DNA of 57,447 nt from a virus. This document shows, in pieces, positions 26,962-30,095 of the stretch. The notes under the pieces were generated by a model. That model made no database searches and had not been told where the DNA came from. It was given only the letters and a program-made list of their open reading frames with translations. The position numbers and the translations under genes are program-made. The stretch's first letter is position 1. Each line of letters begins with the position of its first letter. The DNA lies in the IMG/VR virus record IMGVR_UViG_3300031566_000035, positions 1 to 57,447 of that record, one strand, 5' to 3'.

Positions 26962-27366
26962 ATGGATTCTAAAACAATCAAAAAATATTCAAAAAAAACC
27001 GTCCCGCAATTAATAAAAATTGCAACACTGCATTTTAATAAATTTATCAGGGAAAGGGACAAGGATTTTGGATGTGTCTCATGTCAATCAAAAGTAAATC
27101 AGGCTGGACATTTTTATTCCGGTGGTCATTATTCAGCCCTTAGATTCAATCAGAACAATGTACATGGACAATGTACAAGATGCAATCTGTACCTTTCTGG
27201 AAACCTTAACGAATACCGAAAAAATATTGTTAAAAGGATAGGTGAAAACGGACTTGTTAAACTTGATGAACTCGCTGCATATTATAAAAGGAACGGGTTT
27301 AAATGGGATAGATTTACACTTATAAAGATCATAGAGGAACATAAATTATTAAACAAAAAAAAATGA
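26962..27366 (+). CDS. ninG: NinG/Rap-family recombination endonuclease
   Basis: 134 residues. CVSCQ (about 38-42), QAGHFYSGGHYSALRF (about 47-62) and GQCTRCN..LSGN (about 69-80) are the cysteine/histidine hallmarks of NinG (lambda Rap), a structure-specific nuclease for recombination intermediates. Works with NinB (15155) and the nuclease/SSB pair. Confidence 0.8.
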   Translation: MDSKTIKKYSKKTVPQLIKIATLHFNKFIRERDKDFGCVSCQSKVNQAGHFYSGGHYSALRFNQNNVHGQCTRCNLYLSGNLNEYRKNIVKRIGENGLVKLDELAAYYKRNGFKWDRFTLIKIIEEHKLLNKKK

Positions 27367-27497
27367 CAAACGAAAAAATATTGGAATTATTGTGGGAGCT
27401 AAAAACGGAAGATAAATTTTATTTTATTTCTTACGGGATTGATCTCTTTAGTGGTGGATCACGTGAATTAAGTCGAAGAAATCGAAAAATTACTTGA
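27363..27497 (+). CDS. Small protein (44 aa)
   Basis: 44 residues overlapping the ninG stop (ATGA). No motif. Its end coincides with the -33 element of the promoter at 27494. Confidence 0.4.
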   Translation: MTNEKILELLWELKTEDKFYFISYGIDLFSGGSRELSRRNRKIT

Positions 27498-27523
27498 TAT
27501 TAACTAAATAATTACTATCTTTA
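27494..27523 (+). promoter_or_regulatory. Promoter before structured RNA and DUF5131 gene
   Basis: TTG at 27494-27496, 19 bases, then TATCTTTA at 27516-27523 (consensus TAnnTTTG). Transcription should begin just at the pseudoknot-forming sequence at 27528. Confidence 0.55.
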
Positions 27524-27527
27524 TGGT

Positions 27528-27630
27528 GCAGTTCGGTCATGAAAAAAATAAATCCCATATCGTTAACATCGCCTAATCCGAATATTTCGGGACCGGACTG
27601 CCTTTGTTCTCGGTATGGGTATTTTATTAT
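27528..27630 (+). ncRNA. Predicted pseudoknotted leader RNA
   Basis: GCAGTTCGGTC (27528-27538) pairs with GACCGGACTGC (27591-27601). CCCATATCG (27554-27562) pairs with CGGTATGGG (27611-27619), crossing the first helix. CCGAA/TTCGG (27578-27590) forms an inner hairpin. The last helix is followed by TATTTTATTAT, so it could act as a conditional terminator or leader control for the DUF5131 gene 34 bp downstream. No known class recognised. Confidence 0.55.
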
Positions 27631-27663
27631 GAAAGAAATTTGAAAATATAAAATTTAATCAAA

Positions 27664-28332
27664 ATGGGACTAAATAAATCAAAAGGTAATATGTATGGGT
27701 TTATCACCCACACTTGGAACACTGTTAAAGGTGCTTGTTTTCACGATTGCAGTTATTGTTATATGAAAAGATGGGGTAAACAAAACCCTATTAGATTTGA
27801 TGAAAAGGAATTAAAAACAGATTTAGGAATTGGAAATTTTATATTTGTTGGAAGTAGTTGTGATATGTGGGCTAAAAATATTCCTGATGAATGGATAATT
27901 AAGACATTGAAAAAATGCGAAATTTCTGATAATAAATACCTTTTCCAAACCAAAAACCCAGATAGAATACTTCATTTTATGGACGCATGTATTATTAGTG
28001 ATAAATCTATTGCATGTACTACAATTGAAAGTGATAAATTTTATCCTGAAATAATGAAAAATTCACCACATCCAGTACTTAGAAGTTTATCAATGGAAGA
28101 AATAAGCGGTGCGATTAAAACATTTGTAACAATCGAACCGATAATGGATTTTAATTTAAAAAATTTAATACAAATAATAAAACGATGTAATCCAGAACAG
28201 GTAAATATCGGTGCTGATTCTGGAAATAACAATCTACCAGAACCACCAAAAGAAAAAGTTTTAGAACTTATTTCTGAACTTCAAAAATTCACAATTGTAC
28301 ACAAAAAATCTAATTTGAACAGGCTTTTTTAA
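27664..28332 (+). CDS. DUF5131 (phage Gp37/Gp68) radical-SAM-like protein
   Basis: 222 residues. The N-terminal signature ITHTWNTVKGACFHDCSYCY (about 14-33) contains the C-x3-C-x2-C pattern for an iron-sulphur cluster, as in the DUF5131/Gp37-Gp68 family. Later segments QTKNPDRIL and TFVTIEPIMDF are also typical. Presumed SAM radical enzyme; substrate unknown. Its leader contains the structured RNA at 27528. Confidence 0.8.
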   Translation: MGLNKSKGNMYGFITHTWNTVKGACFHDCSYCYMKRWGKQNPIRFDEKELKTDLGIGNFIFVGSSCDMWAKNIPDEWIIKTLKKCEISDNKYLFQTKNPDRILHFMDACIISDKSIACTTIESDKFYPEIMKNSPHPVLRSLSMEEISGAIKTFVTIEPIMDFNLKNLIQIIKRCNPEQVNIGADSGNNNLPEPPKEKVLELISELQKFTIVHKKSNLNRLF

Positions 28333-29778: not shown

Positions 29779-30095
29779 ACTCTATAATTTCAGAACGGGG
29801 AAAAGAATTGGCGGAAAGCCAATTGTTATTTAAAAAAAGGATAAGAAATGAAGCAAGGAGTGGATTGTCTGAAAATTTTATTAAATTTTTGATAGGTTAC
29901 CATGATTTTACTGAAAAATATATTTCAGAAGTTGAAATGGAAAATTTAAGATTACATTTAAAGGTAAATAAACTTAATAAAAAATCAGAGGCAGGTGTAG
30001 ATGCTGTTTCATGGCTTCAGTCAATTTTAATAAAACAACTGAAAAAATTCAACAATGAACTTAGAGCAATTAAAGAAAGAAAGACAAAAGGTTAA
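29775..30095 (+). CDS. Hypothetical protein between initiator and helicase (106 aa)
   Basis: 106 residues, basic, helical. Overlaps the initiator stop by four bases and the helicase start by about 40. The position suggests a helicase loader or accessory, but no ATPase motif is present. Confidence 0.55.
   Translation: MNSIISERGKELAESQLLFKKRIRNEARSGLSENFIKFLIGYHDFTEKYISEVEMENLRLHLKVNKLNKKSEAGVDAVSWLQSILIKQLKKFNNELRAIKERKTKG

Follow-up and report, generated by a model that had tools for sequence, protein, structure and literature searches.

We examined the leader that precedes a DUF5131-like gene in a virus record of 57,447 bases (this whole stretch of DNA is called the window here) and found that it encodes a real, conserved pseudoknotted RNA, which confirms an observation made in an earlier note from the letters of the window. 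The RNA consists of two crossing helices, A and B, and a hairpin, P3, and occupies positions 27528-27619, directly after a Bacteroidota-type promoter. Twelve homologous leaders keep this fold with different sequences. Three features went beyond the earlier note: helix A lies at the predicted transcription start, an ATG follows its 5' strand, and the upstream open reading frame (uORF) that begins there is open.

Locus and fold of the leader

The leader sits between a ninG-like gene (26962-27366; NinG, 95 bits) and the DUF5131-like gene (27664-28332), in a record whose promoters are of the Bacteroidota type. The label of a radical-SAM-like DUF5131 gene given to the downstream gene held as a weak match, but both Pfam scores were below their cutoffs (DUF5131, 28.3 bits against 28.9; Radical_SAM, 23.9 bits against 29.5). 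Gene names apart from Pfam matches rest on our reading of the sequences. In flavobacteria a TAnnTTTG box occupies -12 to -5 (PMC9723704), and the +1 is therefore predicted at 27528. The promoter box ended 4 nt upstream of helix A in all 13 leaders of the set described below, so the start of helix A is the predicted first transcribed base. The features of the window leader were as follows.

27494-27523, + strand: Bacteroidota-type sigma-A promoter; TTG at 27494-27496, 19 nt, and the -7 box TATCTTTA at 27516-27523
27528-27538, + strand: helix A, 5' strand, GCAGTTCGGTC; its first base is the predicted transcription start, and the strand is the predicted 5' UTR of the uORF
27539-27643, + strand: uORF of 34 codons, MKKINPISLTSPNPNISGPDCLCSRYGYFIMKEI; ATG directly after the helix A 5' strand, stop 20 nt before the DUF5131 start
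27554-27562, + strand: helix B, outer 5' strand, CCCATATCG; the outer helix is also found in the homologues
27564-27568, + strand: helix B, inner 5' strand, TAACA, of which AACA (27565-27568) pairs with TGTT
27569-27573, + strand: junction TCGCC (consensus TTGCC), near-invariant in the 13-leader alignment; the uORFs read through it in three frames
27578-27590, + strand: hairpin P3, CCGAA-TAT-TTCGG, 5 bp (27578-27582 with 27586-27590)
27591-27601, + strand: helix A, 3' strand, GACCGGACTGC; 11 bp with the 5' strand, one of them G-U
27602-27604, + strand: junction CTT, conserved in the alignment
27605-27608, + strand: helix B, inner 3' strand, TGTT; 4 bp with AACA
27611-27619, + strand: helix B, outer 3' strand, CGGTATGGG; 9 bp with the 5' strand, one of them G-U
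27620-27628, + strand: U-rich tract TATTTTATT following helix B, a possible intrinsic termination site
27664-28332, + strand: DUF5131/radical-SAM-like gene, which opens a gene group that includes a DnaB-like gene at 30055

The strands follow one another in the order A5'-B5'-A3'-B3', that is, helices A and B cross. A promoter followed directly by crossing helices of 11 and 9 bp and an inner hairpin had been described, and all of these elements were present; the U-rich stretch said to lie 30-40 bases before the DUF5131 gene was located at 27620-27628, with the gene starting at 27664. Only CTT separates the 3' strand of helix A from inner helix B, and P3 abuts helix A; the likely three-dimensional arrangement is a P3-A-B rod with the UUGCC strand running along helix A. 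A scan for consensus terminators did not flag helix B and the U-rich tract of the window. A U-rich tract follows helix B in most homologues as well, stronger than that of the window in some of them and weak in others. By inspection, the region holds a single structure and no tandem copies. Type III toxin-antitoxin ToxI pseudoknots are similar in that a pseudoknotted RNA precedes a gene, with a terminator between the two. The leader differs from them in being present in single copy without tandem repeats, in carrying an open uORF, and in having no such toxin downstream (the gene matches DUF5131 and Radical_SAM weakly).

The earlier judgment that two long crossing helices are unlikely by chance stood in part: the score of the weaker helix was reached by 4 of 2000 dinucleotide shuffles of the local region, but helices A and B were only narrowly the best crossing pair in the window (21.5 versus 20.5 for the next). 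On their own the sequence statistics are therefore suggestive, and it is the homologues that decide whether the fold is real. Nested folding of the region was mildly better than that of shuffles (z of -1.8), as expected if one crossing helix is left out of such a calculation.

A search of Rfam 15 at the gathering score returned no matches in the window or in 15 loci with related leaders, which bears out the view that the RNA belongs to no known class; the best sub-threshold matches to the region were at chance level. HDV-like ribozymes are marked by a short P1-P2 junction, a P1.1 and a catalytic C in J4/2. The strand order of the leader is the same as theirs (P1 5', P2 5', P3, P1 3', P2 3', with P1 and P2 crossing), as is the phage context: gut phages carry minimal HDV-like 'theta' ribozymes (PMC10879173). 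However, the junction lengths of the leader differ, with 15 nt between the 5' strands of helices A and B (P1 and P2) and a CTT between A3' and B that is too short for P1.1 plus J4/2, neither of which was seen. No ribozyme family in Rfam matched, and with the predicted transcription start at the first base of helix A, cleavage would release no upstream RNA. A self-cleaving ribozyme is thus highly improbable, and we rejected it on the junction lengths and the position of helix A.

Homologous leaders and covariation

The set comprised 13 distinct leaders, namely the window and 12 from other viral contigs (L250 lies on the same contig as L149). All were viral contigs, nearly all metagenomic, with hosts inferred from promoter type. 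At the syntenic place in L055, which carries a relative of the ninG gene (69% identity), we found a crossing-helix leader of different sequence, downstream of ninG and upstream of a Lin1244-like replication gene. Scanning loci for crossing helices right after a promoter identified L008, whose RNA aligned with that of the window and had compensatory changes in helix A. A pattern built from the window and L008 identified four further kinds in IMG/VR (L147, L148, L149 and L151), and a match in L152 was rejected as chance. Two of the three matches to a narrow sequence pattern were likewise chance, L008 being the only true one, and a promoter-anchored conserved-block pattern gave no new true homologues beyond the IMG/VR pattern hits, its remaining matches being chance. 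The set was completed to 13 through relatives of two downstream replication genes and a conserved-block-anchored search; L310 and L294 were added by eye from a listing of the regions upstream of replication-gene relatives. Helix A complementarity was required in the post-promoter crossing scan and in the conserved-block-anchored search. It was not required for finding L147, L148, L149, L151 and L248, all of which show helix A anyway.

The 13-sequence alignment had changes on both sides at 9 of 10 pairs of helix A and at 3 of 5 pairs of inner helix B, so the compensatory changes that had been named as the check on the fold were abundant. Paired cells amounted to 95.4% as compared to 68.8% in shuffles, a percentage raised for the members found by searches in which helix A complementarity was a criterion. 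None of 500 shuffles reached the observed pairing percentage, the both-side counts or the covariation score. When the partners were slid by one column, pairing fell to 35-42%, and the score collapsed for slides of 1-3 columns. A six-sequence version of the alignment also supported the fold by covariation. Helix A began with a G that pairs with a C in all 13 leaders, and P3 was in each case a hairpin of 4-6 bp that ended 0-2 nt before the A 3' strand, its sequences differing. The sequence of outer helix B differed among the homologues. The junctions CATTGC and CTTTG were near-invariant in the 13 homologues, the conservation of the junctions and of parts of helix B being partly due to how the members were selected, since part of the set was gathered with a pattern that contained them.

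To assess the fold independently of the window, a covariance model was made from the 12 other leaders, with inner helix B as its only structure and helix A left out. This leave-one-out model recovered the window at E=8e-10. When run on ~2 Mb of other loci, it turned up a single new kind under the E=0.001 mark, L248 (E=9e-4). In L248 an ATG comes after a 16-bp helix A, although helix A is absent from the structure of the model. In host genomes, model R1 found nothing in 395 Bacteroidota genomes, and model R2 gave weak matches only (E 0.01-0.09), none of the 10 inspected resembling the leader. Distant blastn searches with the leader and the gene against annotated phages returned none.

The leader RNA is not specific to DUF5131 genes. 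The genes behind pseudoknot leaders were replication genes (L147, L250, L307 and others), GIY-YIG-like genes (L008, L148 and L151) and, in the window, the DUF5131-like gene. Conversely, most leaders of other DUF5131 genes lacked this RNA, and several had attC-like hairpins instead. In L001, L002, L005, L006, L017, L032, L034 and L035, long imperfect hairpins with the ends TAACG...GTGTTATGC lie upstream of the DUF5131 relatives; they resemble the attC sites of integrons, which would fit a gene that moves as a cassette. The DUF5131 genes of L020 and L053 lie behind sigma-70-like promoters with a strong terminator hairpin just upstream, in a different sequence context, and the loop of that hairpin can pair with upstream leader sequence. 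Strong crossing A-B-A'-B' helices were also seen in other contigs, at L040:926, L043:5417 (- strand) and L048:5209 (- strand); one of them directly follows an apparent tRNA 3' end and another directly precedes a stretch that resembles a tRNA.

The uORF and a proposed translation-coupled attenuator

The ATG of the uORF lay 0 to +4 nt past the helix A 5' strand in 13 of 13 leaders, and its frame was open through the structure (to 25 nt beyond the A 3' strand) in 11 of 13, the exceptions being L151 and L177, whose uORFs do not reach the end of the structure. Neither the ATG nor the open frame had been used as a search criterion. In dinucleotide shuffles of the same leaders an open frame averaged 3.5 of 13 and none of 2000 reached 11; the other two frames of the leaders were open in 2 and 3 of 13. 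In seven leaders the uORF stop overlapped the gene ATG: the overlap was 1 nt long in L303 and L307, 4 nt in L148, L250 and L254, and 8 nt in L147 and L294. Four others had a gap between the stop and the gene start, of 2 nt (L310), 17 nt (L151), 20 nt (the window) and 33 nt (L177). The remaining two, L008 and L056, had a uORF in frame with the downstream gene that ran on into it. These two leaders fit a reading in which the uORF start is the true or an alternative start of the downstream gene, giving an N-terminal extension, and the structure controls translation only, without termination; the uORF ended at, before or just after the downstream start in the 11 others, and we regard that reading as very unlikely.

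The CATTGCC block was read in all three frames among the 13 uORFs, and by inspection the peptides were dissimilar. Reading of the block in every frame indicates selection on the RNA and on an open frame rather than on the peptide; judging from these sequences, translation of the block seems to matter while the peptide does not. A fixed start codon and an open frame through the knot, combined with freely varying helices, point to a leader that is coupled to the ribosome rather than one that binds a ligand.

On this basis we propose, with somewhat better than even confidence, that the leader acts as a translation-coupled attenuator of early phage operons that depends on prompt loading of a ribosome. 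Transcription would start at the first nucleotide of helix A, such that the A 5' strand would make up the whole 5' UTR of the uORF and the uORF coding sequence would hold the rest of the pseudoknot. By one route, a ribosome would load on the nascent RNA while the A 3' strand (whose first base is ~50 nt past the start codon) is still to be transcribed, hold helix A open and translate through B and P3. This would stop helix B and the U-rich tract from acting as a terminator, and the ribosome would arrive at the real gene's start codon or close to it, and translation would go on there by coupling. By the other route, without a timely ribosome, helix A would close over the start region of the uORF and helix B would close the knot, after which the RNA would be terminated, the gene start would stay masked, or both. 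In most homologues the gene ATG lies within about 8-15 nt after helix B, and since the tract and the ATG follow helix B, its closure should terminate transcription, mask the start, or do both. Bacteroidota lack Shine-Dalgarno sequences, and their initiation is adjusted by the folding of the mRNA near the start codon (PMC6847099); given this sensitivity, closure of helix A would block initiation at the uORF. We infer these dynamics, the division between termination and masked translation, and any phage or host signal that may tune the choice; the structure, its covariation, the fixed start codon, the open frame and the stop/start overlap are what we observed. Genes under the leader head early operons or encode DNA-acting enzymes, and a plausible purpose would be to keep early replication enzymes and other enzymes acting on DNA scarce.

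In the window the coupling looks looser than in most homologues because 20 nt lie between the uORF stop and the DUF5131 start. Positions 27629-27643 hold an in-frame ATG, the residues MKEI and a stop, at the position where homologues begin their gene. The DUF5131 start follows after a further 20 nt, and insertion of this gene downstream of a pre-existing leader is a possible explanation.

The proposed attenuator resembles the ribosome-mediated attenuators of the trp/his type, also proposed in flavobacteria as leader-peptide attenuation (PMC9723704), in that translation of a short 5' ORF would decide the fate of a downstream terminator-like hairpin. As in those systems, a leader ORF extends over the regulatory helices. 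Unlike them, the leader has no mutually exclusive antiterminator, since A and B use separate bases and can form together; its peptide is not conserved and is read in any frame, which leaves no codon-specific sensing; and helix A covers the initiation region of the uORF itself. Enrichment of regulatory codons was not found in the leader peptides of the 13 leaders. In RNA phages, the maturation and replicase genes are translated while the RNA is still nascent or by translational coupling. The likeness there is that a long-range pairing masks a start and ribosomes act before or through the fold, whereas here the phages are DNA phages and the element is a promoter-proximal, 5'-terminal pseudoknot with a dedicated uORF and a U-rich tract past the distal helix.

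The earlier suggestion of a riboswitch-like or protein-binding leader survived as far as the pseudoknotted leader itself, but a binding role is unsupported so far and the helices vary freely. Were the leader riboswitch-like, or a site at which a phage protein regulates its own synthesis, the conserved UUGCC and CUU junctions between A, B and P3 would form the pocket and the uORF would serve solely as the route of expression when the knot is open. The near-invariant junctions, which could bind a protein or a small molecule, the compact three-helix fold, and the occurrence of the same leader type before genes of similar kind (replication, GIY-YIG) agree with it. Against a gene-specific ligand, genes of diverse kinds lie downstream, and in two replication-gene families some members have this leader while others have an unrelated kissing-loop one. 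Moreover, a ligand by itself does not predict the fixed ATG and open frame, and we consider such a binding leader possible but rather unlikely.

Kissing-loop leaders and the wider class

In many leaders found at the same genomic position the layout was different, with a 5' hairpin whose loop makes a kissing contact with the apical loop of a terminator-like hairpin. In group I of these, the terminator-like hairpin carried a GAGTA/GAAA internal loop resembling the loop-E motif. Kissing-loop leaders of the GAGTA/GAAA class were seen in L082, L088, L095, L103, L085, L113, L125, L071, L122 and L134; their kissing sequences vary between lineages yet stay complementary. Model R1, which ignores kissing, matched L145, a contig of a Vicingaceae bacterium (E=0.003), and at L145:1440-1590 the loop of the 5' hairpin (GGTACAG) and the apical loop (CTGTACC) are complementary. 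This leader in a bacterial assembly possibly belongs to a prophage. One replication gene occurred with both layouts, in L149 (pseudoknot) and L088 (kissing), the two being 58% identical, and another did so in L147 and L113 (49% identical). Of 41 distinct leaders that belong to these two replication-gene families and have a correctly spaced promoter, 39% had a crossing score of at least 42 as compared to 0.07% of shuffles, and 26 of the 41 individually reached p<=0.05. Kissing-loop leaders before the same gene families lack the uORF of the pseudoknot type, and the function shared by the two layouts may therefore not need translation.

An A 5' sequence (for example GTGCAG, GGGCAG or ATACGCAACCA) recurs just before the downstream start codon in three leader families, as at L096:142-260, L134:1605-1720, L095:1077-1190, L103 and L085, which would give the A 3' loop a choice of two partners. 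Such a second target for the A 3' loop would suit a stand-alone or processed small RNA of ~100 nt that ends at the U-tract and acts in trans, or a 5' stability element that protects the mRNA, with the 5' end locked in helix A and the 3' end in helix B; the predicted start exactly at helix A and the U-rich tract after helix B would suit it too. However, the structure directly precedes a start codon to which the uORF is coupled, and in the window a second target of the A 3' strand was no better than chance. We find either version doubtful, the translation-coupled attenuator being the reading that we prefer.

Taken with the kissing-loop leaders, the pseudoknot leaders may, at about even odds, belong to a large undescribed leader-RNA superfamily of Bacteroidota phages, in which the 5' end pairs with the loop side of a terminator-like hairpin before the gene and the pseudoknot and kissing classes are interchangeable. 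In the uORF class, passage of a ribosome through an arbitrary ORF would be the signal, serving as a kinetic checkpoint on early replication and endonuclease genes.

The element is a widespread, uncatalogued RNA of environmental and gut phages that stayed hidden from nested-structure searches because its helices cross and share almost no sequence. From its sequences, a knotted 5' fold around a tiny arbitrary ORF, placed in viruses of Bacteroidota-type bacteria before genes for early replication and DNA cutting, has the look of a switch not described before, one that would allow expression only when a ribosome loads early enough. The crossing-helix descriptor offers a direct route to many more members. 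If the proposed mechanism is true, the first hundred bases of the transcript would hold a sequence-independent ribosome sensor, which would explain how replication and endonuclease genes are metered in hosts without Shine-Dalgarno control.
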